From Bryobacterales bacterium (lineage in GTDB: Bacteria; Acidobacteriota; Terriglobia; Bryobacterales; Bryobacteraceae): a stretch of DNA of 64,000 bases. Numbering within the stretch: position 1 is the first letter of the stretch; each line of letters starts with the position of its first letter. The position numbers were made by a program, and so were the translations under genes. The stretch lies in the NCBI GenBank assembly GCA_003170295.1, contig PNAJ01000077.1, positions 1 to 64,000 of the forward strand, in the 5' to 3' direction. Positions 1,721 through 61,779 of this stretch are shown here, piece after piece. Under the pieces are notes generated by a model. The model did no database searches, was not told the DNA's origin, and was given only the letters and a program-made list of their open reading frames with translations.

Positions 1721-2788
1721 TTAGAGAACGCTACGGAAGAATTGTAACGATTCGGTTGCACATTTTTCCCAGCGAAAAAGCTCCGCTCTCTTTCGTCCCA
1801 GCGCCCGCAGTTCCATTTGCAACAATTCCGATTCGAACAAACGGGTCAGCACCGACCCGATTTCATCGGGGCTCTTAGGATCGATCAGAAGCGCTGCATC
1901 ACCCACGATTTCCGGTAGACAGGAATTATTTGAAGTAATCACCGGCGCGCCCGCCGCCATCGCCTGCACCACCGGGAACCCAAAACCTTCGTAGAGAGAA
2001 GGATAGACAAACACCGTAGCCGCGGCGGTGAGTCCCGGCAGATCGCCTTCCGGCACATAGCCCAGATACGTGGCCTCCCGCTGAATGCGCTCGAGCGTCA
2101 GATCGGAACTCCAGCCTCGCGGTCCCGCAATCAGCAGATCGAACTCGGCGCGCAGCGAGGGCTTCAGCAGCGCCCAGGCATCGAGAAGCGTATCGAGATT
2201 TTTTCTCGGCTCGATGGTGCCGACGTAAAGGGCGTAAGGGCGCGTGCGCGGCGCCGGTTGCGCATTGTAATACGATTCCGCGATGCCCGAGTAAATCGTC
2301 TGAATGCGATCCGGTGCGATGCCGAGCAATCGAATCGCATCCTGCCGCGTATTTTCGGAAACCGCGATCAATCCGTCCGCACGGGGCAAAATATTTTCGC
2401 CAAACGCGCGATCGGCTTCGACGTTGCCCGGCGTGTGAACTTCGGGCATCGACCAGCAAGTCAAATCGTGAATCGTCGCCGTCAGCTTTGCGCGGCGCGG
2501 AGGACGGCGCAGCAGGTTCGTCGCATGAAAAACATCGGCCCCGCGGATCAACCAGTCGAGCGGCGGAAAGCCGGTCTCGTTCATCGATTTGATCAGAGCC
2601 AGGCGCGCCATGGTGGCTGGCCGCGAAAGCGCGCTCGTTTCGTGATCGAGCAGGCCGAGATCGCCGAGGAAAGGAAACGCTCGAACATCGGCGCCTTGTT
2701 TTCGGAGATGACGCAGCCAGTGCCACACGTAATTCTTCACGCCCGCGCTGCGGACCAAAGTCGACGTAGCATCGATAATTATGGTCAT
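1721..2788 (-). CDS. GT4-family glycosyltransferase
   Basis: 355 residues with the two Rossmann halves of a GT-B enzyme. The sugar-nucleotide half shows YVGTIEPRKN near residues 188-197 and SLYEGFGFPVVQAMA near 264-278, followed by LPEIVGDAALL. The family transfers a sugar from an NDP-sugar to polysaccharide or lipid acceptors in the cytosol. The usual E-x7-E pair is E267 and Q275 here, so the second Glu is a Gln. It lies 32 bases downstream of asnB on the same strand and is probably co-transcribed, which suggests a role in surface glycan assembly. The acceptor cannot be told from sequence. Confidence 0.85.
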   Translation of the reverse strand: MTIIIDATSTLVRSAGVKNYVWHWLRHLRKQGADVRAFPFLGDLGLLDHETSALSRPATMARLALIKSMNETGFPPLDWLIRGADVFHATNLLRRPPRRAKLTATIHDLTCWSMPEVHTPGNVEADRAFGENILPRADGLIAVSENTRQDAIRLLGIAPDRIQTIYSGIAESYYNAQPAPRTRPYALYVGTIEPRKNLDTLLDAWALLKPSLRAEFDLLIAGPRGWSSDLTLERIQREATYLGYVPEGDLPGLTAAATVFVYPSLYEGFGFPVVQAMAAGAPVITSNNSCLPEIVGDAALLIDPKSPDEIGSVLTRLFESELLQMELRALGRKRAELFRWEKCATESLQFFRSVL

Positions 2789-8293: not shown

Positions 8294-8411
8294 AACGCGA
8301 GGAATTCTTCGCAGACTGGAGTAAGTGATGTGTTTTCTTGGACTCGCGCATCGGAGCGCCTTTTTAGCTCCCGACGTTATCCGGCGTTATTTAGTTCCAA
8401 CCTGGCGTCAC

Positions 8412-9575
8412 CTAGTGCCCTAGATTTTCGTACCAGTTCAGGTTGGTTGTCGCGCTGCCGATGCAGGCCAGGTCGATGCGATGGTCTCCGTTGAGGTCAA
8501 CGGCGGTGCAGGATGCGGCGGCCATGGTTCCGGTGTCGAGCACGCGGCGAGTCCAGCGGCCTTTTTCATTCGTGTAGATCAGCACTTGATAGGGCTTGCC
8601 GCGCATGCCGGCTACGATCTGGTCTCGTTTATCGCCATTGAGGTCCGCGGTGAGAATGGTGTGGGCGTCGAGGAGGGAATCGTCGATGGCGTCGCGGTGC
8701 CATTGGCCTTTGTGTTCGGTGTAGACGACTACCTTATTGCCGTGCCAGGGTTCGATGGCGGCCAGGAAACGCTGCTTGCCGAGGTGACCGACGGCGATGT
8801 CGCTGGTTCCACTTTTCGGCCAGGGATCGGGATTGCCTTTCGAAATCTCCGTGCGCGTCCAGCCATTGTTGAAGCGGTAGAGGTCGATTCCGAGGAACGA
8901 CGCGGTCAGGATGGAGTCGCGGCCCTTGCCGTCCCAATCGACGACCGTGATGCCGTGCTGGACGCCTTCGTTGTCGGCGGCGATGAGCGTACGTTTCCAT
9001 TCACCTGGTTTGTAGTAAACCAACGGCACGTGATCGCGATAGTCGGGGGCGACGGCATTCTCGCCAATTAGAGGAGCGTTGAGGAAGACCGTTGAGCCGT
9101 CGATATTGGCTGATCGAATGCGATGGGAGGTCGGCAGGCGGTCGATTTCGGTGAGAGTCCACGGCTGACGAGGATCGCCGTGGGGCTTGAGCACGGCTAC
9201 ATTGCCCTTGCTGTTGGCAGCCACCATCGAGAAACCGTAAGCGAGCACGATCTGGTCGTTGGAAACGGCGAGATTGATCATCCCGGTGAGGCCGGAGGCG
9301 ATGACGTGCCTTTCCCAGGTTGGATTTTCGAACCACACCAGGTCGGTCATGCCGCTGGCTAGCGCGATCAGGTCGGGCTTGCCATCGCCGTTGAGATCGG
9401 CGGCAACTACTTGGTATCCGCCTTTAAGGCCGGTGGCGATGATGTGTTCGCGGAAGTCGGCGGCCAGGAGGAGCGTTAGAGATGAAAACGCCAGAAGAGC
9501 CGCCTGAAAGGGCGGCTGCCGCCAAAATTTGCGGCCCCACAAGCGGCGGGGAGGGTGCTTTGTCACACGATGCAT
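8412..9575 (-). CDS. Secreted FG-GAP/VCBS repeat beta-propeller protein
   Basis: About 387 residues if started at the ATG at 9575, four bases after the stop of the upstream gene. An earlier ATG at 9635 would overlap that gene by 56 bases. It holds repeated blocks of the DLNGDGKPDLIAL kind (also DLNGDKRDQIVAG, DLNGDHRIDLACIG), which are calcium-binding FG-GAP/VCBS blades of an integrin-like propeller. The N-terminus has a basic stretch and then a hydrophobic run (AALLAFSSLTLLLAA) that serves as a signal peptide. The front half of that run and the residues LWGRKFWRQPPFQ are encoded by a family A dispersed repeat (9484-9541). Likely extracytoplasmic; its ligand is unknown. Confidence 0.8.
   Translation of the reverse strand: MHRVTKHPPRRLWGRKFWRQPPFQAALLAFSSLTLLLAADFREHIIATGLKGGYQVVAADLNGDGKPDLIALASGMTDLVWFENPTWERHVIASGLTGMINLAVSNDQIVLAYGFSMVAANSKGNVAVLKPHGDPRQPWTLTEIDRLPTSHRIRSANIDGSTVFLNAPLIGENAVAPDYRDHVPLVYYKPGEWKRTLIAADNEGVQHGITVVDWDGKGRDSILTASFLGIDLYRFNNGWTRTEISKGNPDPWPKSGTSDIAVGHLGKQRFLAAIEPWHGNKVVVYTEHKGQWHRDAIDDSLLDAHTILTADLNGDKRDQIVAGMRGKPYQVLIYTNEKGRWTRRVLDTGTMAAASCTAVDLNGDHRIDLACIGSATTNLNWYENLGH
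9484..9541 (+). repeat. Dispersed repeat, family A copy inside the VCBS coding region
   Basis: Contains GAAGAGCCGCCTGAAAGGGC followed by GGCTGCCGCCAAAATTTGCGGCCCCAC. Near-identical copies are at 34498-34555 (same orientation) and 53737-53800 (inverted). Diverged copies lie at 22062-22111, 43494-43543 and 53617-53668, and a fragment at 60174-60195. Two hairpins are possible: CCGCCTGAAAGGGCGG and TTGGCGG/CCGCCAA. Here the copy is read on the minus strand as the beginning of a protein. Confidence 0.75.
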
Positions 9576-9579
9576 CCAT

Positions 9580-10377
9580 TTACTTTGACACGGGAACGAT
9601 TTTGAAATCCCAAACCTGGGTGTTGATGCTTTCAAGACCCTCCGTGTACTCGACCAGCGCGTACTCGCCGGGCTCCAGATCTTTCTCGGGCCAGACTTTG
9701 TAGACGTTGTCGCCTTCCTGCTTTTTAAACGTAGCGACTTCCTTAAACTCCTGCAAGACTTCCTTGGAGACGGGAATGAGATGGATATTCTCGACGATGC
9801 GCGAGCCTTTCTTGGTGGGCGTCAGCTTGACTAGGGCGAAACGCTCGAAGGTGGAGAGGCGGAAGAAGAATTCGGGCCGCGGTTCGGCGATCGGCTTGGC
9901 GGAAGTATCGCCGTCGATTTCAAGAGTGGCTTTGCCGGCGACCATCGGGATCGGCGACAACGCTTTGAGGACCTGGCGCTTTTTGTCGTTGACGACTTTC
10001 GATTCGCCGACTTTGATCGCCTCGAGATTGTTGTTGTGGATGTAATAGACGCCGGGTTCGGAGGGGATTTGCTCCACCTGTTTCACTACCAGGCGCTCCG
10101 CCGCGTCCTCCTCGGCTTGCGACTTCGCATCGGCCTTCAGATCCTCGTCGTGCTGCTCGGCTTCCTTCTTAGTACGCGCGAGATCGACGAGCTCCAGAGG
10201 GATCTCTTCCCATTCGCCGCGCTCGCTGCTCAGGTAACTGACGCGGTCCTTGACGACCTTGTATTCGCTGGCCAACTGATAGGTGCCGTCTTTGAGATAG
10301 AGACGGGTTGTTCCGCCGAAAGCGGCGGCGGCGAACACTTGGAAAAAGGCGAGAAGAAAGACGATTCGCGAAAGCAT
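9580..10377 (-). CDS. Secreted protein of unknown function
   Basis: 265 residues with a clear signal peptide (MLSRIVFLLAFFQVFAAAAFG). The next stretch resembles a short SH3-like beta segment (TTRLYLKDGTYQLASEY), then a charged helical linker rich in Lys/Glu/Asp (residues about 65-100), then a beta-rich C-terminal domain ending EYTEGLESINTQVWDF. Proteins of this outline recur in Acidobacteria with no known role. Its start codon is only 17 bases from that of the divergent aldo/keto reductase, so their promoters must overlap coding sequence. The VCBS gene follows four bases after its stop and is probably co-transcribed. Confidence 0.75.
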   Translation of the reverse strand: MLSRIVFLLAFFQVFAAAAFGGTTRLYLKDGTYQLASEYKVVKDRVSYLSSERGEWEEIPLELVDLARTKKEAEQHDEDLKADAKSQAEEDAAERLVVKQVEQIPSEPGVYYIHNNNLEAIKVGESKVVNDKKRQVLKALSPIPMVAGKATLEIDGDTSAKPIAEPRPEFFFRLSTFERFALVKLTPTKKGSRIVENIHLIPVSKEVLQEFKEVATFKKQEGDNVYKVWPEKDLEPGEYALVEYTEGLESINTQVWDFKIVPVSK

Positions 10378-21989: not shown

Positions 21990-22111
21990 TAAAAGTCTGT
22001 GCCACCCAGTTACACATTGGTGGCACAGGCTTCAGCCTGTGAAATCCATTCTCTGGACCAATTGTGGTGCCGCCAATACTGGCGGCAGCCGCCGTTTTAG
22101 GCGGCTCTTCT
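21990..22111. repeat. Tandem dispersed repeats after clpC (family A copy plus palindromic pair)
   Basis: ACAGACTAAAAGTCTGTGCC at 21984-22003 and GGTGGCACAGGCTTCAGCCTGTG at 22019-22041 are each near-palindromes and share a GGTGGCACAG edge in opposite orientation. They are followed at 22062-22111 by an inverted family A copy (CCGCCAATACTGGCGGCAGC, then CCGCCG..GGCGGCTCTTC). The block separates clpC from the convergent small gene and may also serve as the bidirectional 3' end of both. Confidence 0.55.
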
Positions 22112-30672: not shown

Positions 30673-30725
30673 TTGGTGGCGCGAGCTTCAGCTTGCAGCG
30701 GCGGCTTCAGCCACCGTCTCGTCCG
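30673..30725 (+). repeat. Dispersed repeat, family B copy
   Basis: GGTGGCGCGAGCTTCAGCTT followed by GCAGCGGCGGCTTCAGCCACCG matches 55643-55695 almost base for base. It holds two short hairpins (GCGAGCTTCAGCTTGC and GGCGGCTTCAGCCACC). It lies in the gap between the PHP-esterase gene and the PfkB gene and is followed directly by a family D-like fragment and a family C copy. Confidence 0.65.
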
Positions 30726-34370: not shown

Positions 34371-34497
34371 TAGGGAGTTTGCGCTGCTACAGAGAACAAG
34401 CATTCACCGCGGCGGCAGGGTTCGTGGTGCCGGCGCGACGGAAAACAAGTGGGGAAAATGAGTTTTTCAGCAATCTCTGCCAACCTGCACCCCAGCT

Positions 34498-34555
34498 GAA
34501 AACGCCAGAAGAGCCGCCTGAAAGGGCGGCTGCCGCCAAGATTGGCGGCCCCACA
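34498..34555 (+). repeat. Dispersed repeat, family A copy upstream of the methyltransferase
   Basis: The sequence from AAAACGCCAGAAGAGCCGCC through GGCGGCCCCACA is nearly identical to 9484-9541 over its whole length, including the flanking AAAACGCCAGAAGAG. An open frame passes through it in phase with the methyltransferase, but no start favours including it in the protein. Confidence 0.75.
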
Positions 34556-53616: not shown

Positions 53617-53893
53617 TCTTGTAGGGCGGCCAATCCTGGCTGCAGCCGCCTTCAGGCGGCTCTTCCGGTTGCATTTTCATTCCCATCGTGCGTGCGTTCC
53701 GTGTCGACACTCTCGTAAACACTCCGCCACGCCGCTCTTGTGGGGCCGCCAATTTTTGGCGGCAGCCGCCCTTTCAGGCGGCTCTTCTGGCGTTTTCACC
53801 CCATCGTTCCCCAGCCGCTGGCCAGGGAAACACTCGTGCGCGCGTGCGTCGACACTCGTGTCGTCGCCGAACCGCAACCGTCAGGGAGCGGAC
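53617..53893. repeat. Cluster of dispersed repeats (families A, A, C, C, D)
   Basis: The 327-base gap between dtd and nikR contains, in order, an inverted family A copy (53617-53668, CTTGTAGGGCGGCCAATCCT), a short family C piece (53686-53715), a second inverted family A copy (53737-53800, very close to 9484-9541), a family C copy (53834-53870) and a family D piece (53869-53893, GAACCGCAACCGTCAGGGAGC). No gene is visible. Such pile-ups are typical of REP-like spread. Confidence 0.7.
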
Positions 53894-55642: not shown

Positions 55643-55695
55643 GTGGTGGCGCGAGCTTCAGCTTGCAGCGGCGGCTTCAGCCGCCGTCTCGTCCC
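55643..55695 (+). repeat. Dispersed repeat, family B copy
   Basis: TGGTGGCGCGAGCTTCAGCT followed by TGCAGCGGCGGCTTCAGCCGCCGTCTCGTCC. Almost the same as 30673-30725 over 50 bases, including both small hairpins. It lies after the zinc-ribbon gene. Confidence 0.65.
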
Positions 55696-59011: not shown

Positions 59012-60160
59012 GTGCCTTCCTACCGCGTCAGCGCCGGTTATATGACGCGCGTCAACGTCAGCAATACCGTGGTGACGGAAGTGAATATCCGCAACGTAAA
59101 TAACGTGTACGTCAATCAGCGAGTCCCCGGAGCCGTGGTCGCCGTCCGCGGCGATGTCATGACCAGCGGCCGGCCCGTGGGAGCTTCCGCCATGCGCGTC
59201 ACGCCTGGCGTCGTCGCGAATATTGCGGTGATCCACGCCGCCCCGGTCGCGCCGGATCGGGCCGCGGTCCTCGGTGGCCGCGCTCCTATATCCGCGGGAG
59301 CCCACGTCCCTCCGCCCGCCGCGATGAACCGGCAAGTGGTGGCGAAGGCAGCTCCTCCTCCCGCTCCGGTTCCGTTCGTGCGTCAACAGCAGGCGCTCCA
59401 AGCCAATCCTGGACGTCCTCTCGATGCGGGAGCTGTCAGGAATCTGCAAGGTAGCCAGCCTCCCCCGCGCATGAATATCCGGCCCGCGGCCCCTACCGCG
59501 CCCGCCGCGAGAGTACCTTATGTGAGTCCCGCGAATCCGAACCCGGCAAATCGCCCGGCGGTGAACAATCCCACGCCGAACGCACCGGCCCGAACCGACC
59601 CATTCACGCGGCCGAATTCTACACCCAATCCGCCAGCTCAACCCGAGCCTGTCGCGCCGCGTGCCAATCCCACGCCGAACGCACCAGCCCGGCCTGACAC
59701 CTTCACGCGCCCGAATCCCACGCCCAACCCGCCGGCTCAACCCGAGCCTCGTTCGCGGCGTCCCGACCCCACGCCGGTTCCGCCGGAGCGTGCCGCGCCG
59801 CGTACTGATCCGACGCCCAATCCTCCCGCGAGACCCGAGCGCATCGCGCCGCGTAACACACCGGCTCCCAACCCGCCCGCCAGACCCGAGCCAGTCGCGC
59901 CGCGTGGGAATCCCGCGCCAAACCCGCAGCCCAATCCGCCGGCGCGACCCGAGTATGTCAGGCCGCGTAACGAGCCGACTCCCAACCCGCCAGCGAGACA
60001 GGAGGTTAGGCCACAGCCACAGCCGCAGCCCGCTCCTCCACTACGCTCGGAACCGCCTCGCAGGGAGGAAGCGCGTCCCGCACCCCAGCCCGAGCGTCAA
60101 CAACAAAAGACCACCAAGCCTCCGGACAAGAAAACGGAGAAGCCCGAGAAGGAAAAATAG
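59012..60160 (+). CDS. 3' part of the interrupted FecR/DUF6600-like gene, proline-rich tail
   Basis: 382 residues in the same frame as the preceding part, beginning at a GTG immediately after its TGA (TGAGTG). It continues the family body (VPSYRVSAGYMTRVNVSNTVVTEVNIRNVNNVYVNQRVPGAVVAV) and ends in a long low-complexity Pro/Asn/Arg tail built of about ten units like NPTPNPPARPEPVAPR. Such tails are usually extracellular and may bind peptidoglycan or span the wall. Without readthrough or re-initiation it lacks a signal peptide. Confidence 0.65.
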   Translation: MPSYRVSAGYMTRVNVSNTVVTEVNIRNVNNVYVNQRVPGAVVAVRGDVMTSGRPVGASAMRVTPGVVANIAVIHAAPVAPDRAAVLGGRAPISAGAHVPPPAAMNRQVVAKAAPPPAPVPFVRQQQALQANPGRPLDAGAVRNLQGSQPPPRMNIRPAAPTAPAARVPYVSPANPNPANRPAVNNPTPNAPARTDPFTRPNSTPNPPAQPEPVAPRANPTPNAPARPDTFTRPNPTPNPPAQPEPRSRRPDPTPVPPERAAPRTDPTPNPPARPERIAPRNTPAPNPPARPEPVAPRGNPAPNPQPNPPARPEYVRPRNEPTPNPPARQEVRPQPQPQPAPPLRSEPPRREEARPAPQPERQQQKTTKPPDKKTEKPEKEK

Positions 60161-60195: not shown

Positions 60196-61779
60196 GTGTT
60201 GCGGCCCGGCGTCTATCGCGTCGAAGTGAATGAAGCGGGCGATACCACCGTCATCACCGTCCGCGGCGGCGACGGCGAAACCACGGCCGACGGCAAGGCC
60301 GCTCCACTGCACGTCAACGAACAAGTCGTGATGAGAGGCGCCACCAATCCCAGCTACGATAGGCACCCCGCTCCCAGAACCGACGAGTTCGATGCCTGGG
60401 GCGCGGACCGCGATCGCCGCTCGGATTCCTCAGTCTCCGTAAGGTACGTCGCACCGGGCGTGGTCGGCGTCACCGATCTCGATGTAGCAGGTGCTTGGAG
60501 ACCGGCTCCGGTATACGGCAACGTCTGGTTCCCGCATACCGTGGTTGCCGACTGGGCTCCCTACCGCTTCGGCCACTGGGGCTTCGTCGCGCCGTGGGGA
60601 TGGACCTGGATTGACGACGCTCCCTGGGGCTATGCGCCGTTTCACTATGGACGGTGGGTCATGGTCGGCGGAGCCTGGGGCTGGGCGCCCGGACCCATCG
60701 CGGTTCGCGCCGTCTACGCGCCCGCGCTGGTTTCGTTTATCGGCGGCGTCGAAGTGGTCGGTGTAGTCGACCCGGTAAGCTGGGTCGCGTTGAGCTGGGG
60801 CGAGCCCTGGTATCCCAGCTTTGGCGTCAGCTACGGCTATTACAATAGCGTCAACCTCTGCGGCTCTATCTTCGGGGCGGGCATCATCGCCGGTGTGTGG
60901 GGCGGAGCGGCCGTCAACCTGGCATACGGGCACGATTACCGGGCCGTGAACGTGGTGGGACGCGACGGTTTCGCCGGTGGTCATGGCGTTGGACGCGAGT
61001 TCGCCCATCGCGATCGCTTCGGCGGCCATGCCTTCGATCATGCCGGATCGCGGCGCGAAGGCGTGCGCGGGATCGGAGCTTCGAGAGAAGGCCGGTTTGG
61101 TGGGCATGCTCCTCTGCGGGCAGGCAGCCATGGAATCCCTCCGCGCGGCGCCATGGGCCGGTCGGCGGTAACTCGCCATGAGCCCGGTGCGGCTGGACAT
61201 GGAGGTGGATTCCGCGGAGCGGGCGTCGCGGCGAAACATGGGCCGTCGGCCAACGCCGGACACGCCGGGTCGTTCAACCACGTAAGTAACAACGGACACG
61301 CTGTCGGCGCCCCGTCGCACAACAGCACTCCGGCTGGTGGATCGAAGGTCGGCAGTGCCGTAACACATAACACCACTCCCGCGGGCGGATCCAAGGCCGG
61401 CAGTGCGGTCACGCACAACACCACTCCGGCCGGTGGATCGAAGGTCGGCCGCGCGGTCACGCACAACACCACTCCTGCGGGTGCCTCGAAGGTGAGCAGT
61501 GCGAGCGCGGCAACGCATAGCACCACTCCGGCAGGTGGGAGCAAGTTAGGGAACACCAACCACTCCGGTATGGGCGGTGCTGGTGCAGGGAGCACGGGTC
61601 GGTCCGGTATCGGCGGCGCCGCGAGCGGTGTGGGCCGCTCTGGTTCGTCCGGTATCGGCAGCGCTGTGGGCGGCGTGGGCCACTCGACCCCATCCGGCGG
61701 CGGGGCGGCAGCCCGCGGACCAGTCGGAGGCGTAGGGCACGCCCCATCCGGCGGCGGCGCACCAACCCACAAGAAGTAG
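60193..61779 (+). CDS. 5'-truncated paralog of the FecR/DUF6600-like protein, Gly/His/Ser-rich tail
   Basis: About 528 residues from a GTG at 60193, with no clear ribosome site. It starts in the middle of the FecR domain (VLRPGVYRVEVNEAG) and has no signal peptide. The aromatic DUF6600-like repeats follow (WAPYRFGHWGFVAPWGWTWIDDAPWGYAPFHYGRW), then a Gly/His/Ser-rich tail that includes five near-identical units of the type HNTTPAGGSKVGSAVT. The paralogs at 57962 and here share about 65% of residues in the common part by eye. A promoter for this copy may come from the first gene; a pseudogene status is possible. Confidence 0.72.
   Translation: MVLRPGVYRVEVNEAGDTTVITVRGGDGETTADGKAAPLHVNEQVVMRGATNPSYDRHPAPRTDEFDAWGADRDRRSDSSVSVRYVAPGVVGVTDLDVAGAWRPAPVYGNVWFPHTVVADWAPYRFGHWGFVAPWGWTWIDDAPWGYAPFHYGRWVMVGGAWGWAPGPIAVRAVYAPALVSFIGGVEVVGVVDPVSWVALSWGEPWYPSFGVSYGYYNSVNLCGSIFGAGIIAGVWGGAAVNLAYGHDYRAVNVVGRDGFAGGHGVGREFAHRDRFGGHAFDHAGSRREGVRGIGASREGRFGGHAPLRAGSHGIPPRGAMGRSAVTRHEPGAAGHGGGFRGAGVAAKHGPSANAGHAGSFNHVSNNGHAVGAPSHNSTPAGGSKVGSAVTHNTTPAGGSKAGSAVTHNTTPAGGSKVGRAVTHNTTPAGASKVSSASAATHSTTPAGGSKLGNTNHSGMGGAGAGSTGRSGIGGAASGVGRSGSSGIGSAVGGVGHSTPSGGGAAARGPVGGVGHAPSGGGAPTHKK
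61330..61545 (+). repeat. Tandem coding repeat in the tail of the FecR-like paralog
   Basis: Units of 54 bases encode S/THNTTPAGGSKVGSAVT-like blocks; about five units run from SHNSTPAGGSKVG to THSTTPAGGSKLG. The nucleotide copies are nearly identical at many third positions, so expansion is recent. Copy number may vary between strains. Confidence 0.65.

Follow-up and report, generated by a model that had tools for sequence, protein, structure and literature searches.

In enterobacteria, a mobile repeat, a 168-bp MITE, has been found fused in frame so that it forms part of a signal peptide with a SignalP score of 0.994, and similar proteins in other genera carry predicted signal sequences that are unrelated to the MITE repeat (PMC2759123). 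REPs are described as palindromes that bear a GTAG tag, one family having a GTGG variant, and they are sometimes located within open reading frames, N-termini included, and the same source mentions transposases of Acidobacteria species (PMC3733652). The tetranucleotide GT(A/G)G is a mark of those REPs that are associated with RAYTs (PMC2817692). In Rickettsia, palindromic elements have inserted in frame into several genes that are unrelated to one another within a single genome, where they are apparently tolerated (Ogata et al. 2000, cited in PMC2229807 and PMC3733652). The case described here is of the same kind as the enterobacterial precedent, with a different element, a different phylum and a different protein. 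As in that precedent, a short mobile repeat lies in frame and forms part of a likely signal peptide; unlike it, the element is of the REP/RAYT type and measures about 50-78 nt, the phylum and the host protein are others, and the signal is predicted here from a hydropathy profile only.

The gene concerned encodes a beta-propeller protein of 387 residues and lies on the reverse strand at 8412-9575, from ATG 9575 to the stop codon that ends at 8412, within the window, a stretch of 64,000 nucleotides on contig C79 of the 6.2-Mb draft genome that we searched (168 contigs, 82.86% complete). The protein scores above the Pfam gathering cut-offs for PF22301 (67.1 bits, cut-off 27, E 2.3e-18), PF13517 (58.2 bits, cut-off 26.9, E 1.3e-15) and PF01839 (31.2 bits, cut-off 22.1, E 1.9e-7), which places it among the AUDH beta-propeller and FG-GAP proteins. 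It is matched in 55 of the 81 genomes searched, its own included, and 15 of the 18 named records among the related loci are from Acidobacteriota, nine of these from Bryobacterales or Bryobacteraceae, which suggests a host close to that group. Immediately upstream, at 9580-10377 of the reverse strand, lies a gene for a protein of 265 residues with a hydrophobic N-terminus, whose stop codon precedes the propeller ATG. This upstream protein shows no Pfam match at E values up to 1 and is matched in 75 of the 81 genomes, again counting its own, with one match in each except two in G008 and G039. The gene downstream of the propeller gene, which we take to be FtsX-like, is matched weakly next to one of the relatives (L071, 29%).

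Pattern and consensus matches place a 50-nt REP-type core, headed by GT(G/A)G and containing two hairpins, at 9494-9543 on the reverse strand, where it encodes residues 12-27 of the propeller protein together with the final base of codon 11 and the opening base of codon 28. To its right, an extension at 9481-9493 (reverse strand), which consists of T and GGCGTTTTCATC and is recognized by its flank motif and by a 98% consensus match over 9481-9543, completes codon 28, encodes residues 29-31 and contributes two bases to codon 32. To its left, a shortened extension at 9544-9558 (reverse strand), recognized by the flank motif GCACCCTC, which is followed by CCCGCCG, supplies the final base of codon 6, encodes residues 7-10 and contributes two bases to codon 11. 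Both motifs were chosen after the flanks had been read; GGCGTTTTCATC with at most one mismatch occurs in 11 of 66 right flanks, the window copy included, and in 0 of the 66 left flanks, shuffles giving about 0, and exact GCACCCTC occurs in 7 of 66 left flanks, likewise including the window copy, and in one right flank (shuffle mean 0.2). Judged by eye from these flanks, the middle of the left extension appears to be missing from the window copy. The repeat-derived span, 9558-9481, corresponds to residues 7-31 of the propeller reading frame. A preliminary description of this DNA had assigned the first 31 or so residues to the repeat; the copy itself, on the minus strand and in frame from ATG 9575, is real, but the part that it encodes begins at residue 7, and residues 1-6 have no shown repeat origin. 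The window copy is 98% identical to the 50-nt core and to the extended consensus alike, so the insertion may be recent and the intact frame downstream of it says little about function. RNA structure was also considered as the function of the repeat and was set aside as weak, the 141-nt fold having a z of -1.58 with 14 of 200 shuffles equally stable.

The same repeat is found at many other places in the genome. A 30-nt core pattern allowing up to three mismatches occurs 50 times genome-wide, compared with no occurrence of the reversed pattern used as a control, and BLAST located the repeat at 43 places. From the loci examined, 66 distinct copies were gathered. The head tetranucleotide is GTGG in 55 of these copies, GTAG in eight and another sequence in three; GT(G/A)G is thus present in 63 of 66, and the consensus and its predicted fold contain the GC-rich palindromes that, together with such a head, characterize REPs. 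Within the window, further copies lie at 22062-22111 (forward strand), at 34497-34555 (reverse strand) and, as another long copy, at 53737-53806 (forward strand), the last adjoining a diverged copy at 53618-53688. On contig C50 two copies stand in tandem (L098, about 8308-8427), and the next gene there probably starts at a later TTG. The window also holds a second, different repeat of 51 nt, with two copies 98% alike at 30674-30724 and 55644-55694, as well as tandem repeats at 59566-59763 and 61316-61503 with spacings of 99 nt and 48 nt.

Searches for the enzyme that might move such a repeat gave 12 Y1_Tnp matches in the genome, 11 of them above the cut-off. One RAYT, on contig C44, contains VMPNHVHLLV, and its two parts lie in different frames, which indicates that it is decayed. 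This RAYT sits between a full repeat copy (1161-1208 of L116, forward strand; L130 is the same place) and a partial, inverted copy that covers core positions 20-48 only (1788-1816), beyond which is a further copy (1860-1905, forward strand); it is the only RAYT for which flanking by two inverted copies was found. An intact RAYT frame on contig C71 (L117), 72% identical to the larger part of the C44 RAYT over residues 64-196, has one repeat copy near it (84%). With its GT(A/G)G head, its GC-rich palindromes and a RAYT gene flanked by copies, the family resembles the REP/RAYT and REPIN systems (PMC2817692, PMC3116915). Where more than 100 copies are said to be usual, 66 were collected here, from a draft genome and within the limits of the search; in addition, one RAYT carries a frameshift and has a copy in inverse orientation that is partial, and the intact one is accompanied by a single diverged copy. 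In none of the 22 same-genus genomes searched was the repeat found, and it was matched in 2 of 38 genomes of other relatives. We read this as a lineage-specific REP expansion, with transposition as the presumed route, and the repeat was probably spread by a RAYT transposase (Y1, HuH type). The description of the repeat as mobile, given at the outset, is supported to the extent that the element looks like a mobile one, being of the REP type, RAYT-associated and lineage-restricted.

The ORF listing opened the propeller frame at an earlier TTG, 9635, within the upstream gene, and the likeliest start codon is the ATG at 9573-9575 (reverse strand), which, as read from the sequence, lies four bases past the stop codon of the upstream gene; we infer that translation starts there. 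From 9575 onward, in-frame ATG, GTG or TTG codons are found at 9575, at 9566, at 9542, where a TTG (9540-9542, reverse strand) forms codon 12 within the repeat, and next only at 9350, so that none is present between codon 12 and codon 76. The start must therefore lie before or inside the repeat, unless the gene is damaged, and a late start at 9350 would cut conserved sequence, because residues 41-76 have a mean identity of 65% to 42 relatives. It is conceivable, although we consider it unlikely, that the repeat removed the true start or separated it from the gene, that chance alone keeps the frame open after ATG 9575 and that the gene yields little exported protein or none. Reading through the repeat without a stop is indeed unremarkable in itself, 308 of 396 copy-by-frame readings being open, and by eye several other copies lie upstream of genes that have an apparent later start of their own. 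Inspection by eye also found no clear ribosome-binding site ahead of ATG 9575, and folding predicts hairpins near the beginning of the coding part, with a stability that is nothing out of the ordinary, as the z score given above indicates. Damage to the gene would leave unexplained, however, that the frame yields a plausible signal at the right place, and the ATG four bases past the upstream stop would suit translational coupling. The codon score of the downstream part, 0.29, is also within the training range of -0.01 to 0.40, the score being a crude measure of codon usage trained on 26 ORFs of the window. Some of these ORFs have scores close to zero and are possibly spurious, and the propeller gene itself may be one of the 26.

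A Sec signal peptide is composed of a basic n-region and a hydrophobic core of about 10-15 residues, and signal peptides accept many basic-then-hydrophobic sequences. The hydropathy profile of the predicted N-terminus shows this pattern. Read from ATG 9575, it carries a net charge of +7 ahead of the hydrophobic peak, reaches a maximum 11-residue hydropathy of 2.28 and includes an uncharged run of 15 residues, AALLAFSSLTLLLAA, about half of which comes from the repeat and half from the old gene. As the gene stands, the greater part of the basic segment and the first half of the hydrophobic one come from the repeat, which bears out its first characterization as a basic-then-hydrophobic segment. 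Removal of residues 7-31 shortens the uncharged run from 15 to 8 residues and lowers the peak from 2.28 to 1.54, and removal of residues 4-31 gives a peak of 1.10 with a run of 8. Since 1.54 falls just below the weakest of 40 relatives scored as having a hydrophobic N-terminus (1.59), the repeat may not be essential to the signal. The 8-residue run that is left over is short, which suggests that some of the old signal has probably been lost.

The comparison with these relatives bears on the origin of export. A tblastn search (E up to 1e-60) was run on 48 loci, of which 42 remained after our own locus was excluded and the distant L074-L078 had dropped out. A hydrophobic N-terminus, with a peak 11-residue hydropathy of at least 1.59 (range 0.64-2.95), was found in 40 of the 42 under a start rule that took the most hydrophobic of the possible ATGs and is thus biased towards signals, L044 and L065 being without one under this choice; the 42 are not independent, the rows of L050 and L069 being identical and others near-identical. 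None of the 42 has the repeat near its start; a loose flag at L072 was rejected as a chance hit with two mismatches, the same pattern occurring three times in its 9,140-base locus. These findings suggest that export is probably ancestral to the protein family, and the proposal that a mobile element had supplied export to this protein is too strong, as 40 of 42 relatives have a hydrophobic N-terminus of their own and no repeat, unless the gene lost its own start on arriving at this locus. Orthologs that share the N-terminal residues and have no repeat, which would have argued against a repeat origin of this segment, were not encountered: identity within residues 7-31 is 30% (62 of 205 positions), mostly hydrophobic against hydrophobic residues, compared with the 65% over residues 41-76. 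The alignments of the 42 relatives start at a median of residue 32.5, and 20 of the 42 reach into residues 7-31. In four of them, L061, L036, L052 and L058, the alignment is gapless between residue 21 or 23 and residue 44, which indicates that the repeat-coded part occupies the place of their own hydrophobic segment. L032 reads LLALCTLTVCLLAAAEF where our protein has LLAFSSLTLLLAADF, a resemblance that spans the edge of the repeat and that we presume to be fortuitous, both stretches being rich in Leu and Ala. Identity to the best relatives is about 60-64%, no close relative with an empty site is among them, and 15 of the 22 same-genus genomes are without a propeller match; with relatives at this distance, the ancestral N-terminus cannot be read.

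Taken together, we consider it probable, with some reserve, that a REP-type repeat lies in frame at the 5' end of the gene of an already exported protein and has replaced or lengthened the front of its existing signal. The ribosome would start at ATG 9575, directly past the stop codon of the upstream gene, and the product would have a long basic n-region followed by the uncharged run AALLAFSSLTLLLAA. The Sec machinery should still recognize such an N-terminus, with cleavage presumably near LLAA-DF if the usual cleavage rule applies, both export and cleavage being predicted from the sequence. The element would thus have modified the front of a signal that was there before and would not have created export.

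The place of the gene in the genome admits a different history, which we regard as quite unlikely. The propeller gene may have moved beside the upstream gene and been cut off, at the breakpoint, from its own start codon and the first part of its signal; replacements for both would then have come by chance from the repeat and from the DNA that follows the upstream gene. Among 48 VCBS loci (our own and 47 others), only our own has the upstream gene within its flanks. In seven of 11 same-genus loci, the far flank of the upstream gene bears a gene that is also found on that flank here (aldo/keto reductase, endonuclease IV or LeuS), and none of the 11 has a propeller match near the upstream gene within the stretches searched, as is also the case in four longer stretches. 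From these neighbourhoods, the propeller gene seems to sit in a derived place, and the residues that do not come from the repeat make a short stretch for a hydrophobic core. Nothing, however, places the breakpoint at the repeat, the flanks compared extend over at most about 1.5-4 kb, and the relatives are too diverged for their intergenic DNA to be compared by eye. If the breakpoint were at the repeat, the element could have helped to restore export; that a REP at such a junction, together with an ATG that happened to lie upstream, provided a new and working signal peptide has in our view a rather small chance of being correct.

It is much less probable still that the repeat is a 5' untranslated sequence, with translation starting after it at a non-standard codon, such as a CTG in SLTLLLAA, and the open frame being a misannotation. 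Many REPs at the N-termini of open reading frames may be extragenic, with the start possibly downstream (PMC3733652); unlike those suspected cases, the propeller frame has no standard start until codon 76. ATG, GTG and TTG are all absent between codons 12 and 76, and if translation began within SLTLLLAA the product would lack a basic n-region and retain next to nothing of the signal. A wrong join of the contig at the repeat, which would mean that its two flanks are not from the same place, is scarcely credible. In its favour, the genome is a draft of 168 contigs, 82.86% complete, and the window copy has an exact stretch of up to 49 nt in common with another collected copy; against it, 49 nt is shorter than a usual sequencing read.

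The preferred reading, in which the repeat altered the front of an existing signal, can be set beside other copies of the family that lie in genes. Coding status was judged on the stretches around the copies with the codon-usage score described above; by eye, four copies are inside coding sequence and several are upstream of genes with their own start. Apart from the propeller gene, three copies look in frame within other genes. In ComEC on contig C61 (L132, L153; about 64703; Pfam Competence and Lactamase_B), 24 extra residues are present at the repeat copy compared with 11 of 13 relatives, the remaining two (L161, L162) being unaligned at the site, and they sit between the membrane part and the metallo-beta-lactamase part. 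In a membrane-type protein on the same contig (L133, L167; about 100576), 12-13 extra residues are found at the repeat compared with eight relatives at 30-40% identity, these being the rows left after L172, L176 and L179 proved unusable and L178 and L180 repeated other rows. The third host, a membrane-type protein on contig C44, shows no clear net length change in an alignment in which L186 is unaligned at the site and L194 carries a separate, long insert; its frame of 402 codons, as against 683-780 in 13 relatives, suggests that it may be damaged. Two proteins that we provisionally labelled SpeE and GT have no Pfam match. The copies at L084, L106, L149, L104, L098 and L145, among others, were examined as further repeat-made signals and rejected, because by eye a plausible start codon follows the repeat. 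By analogy, the in-frame copies agree with published REPs within genes and with the Rickettsia elements; for the latter, an effect on guanylate kinase was measured there, and the likeness seen here is an analogy of in-frame insertion (Ogata et al. 2000, cited in PMC2229807 and PMC3733652).

In summary, this locus offers a natural example of a short palindromic repeat that is tolerated, and perhaps put to use, within what is likely to be a signal peptide. If the propeller gene did acquire its signal front at a breakpoint, a REP could serve as a ready-made export module. The genome, with its three other apparently in-frame copies, could serve to compare tolerated insertion sites, among which permissive signal peptides would be landing sites for repeats with open frames.
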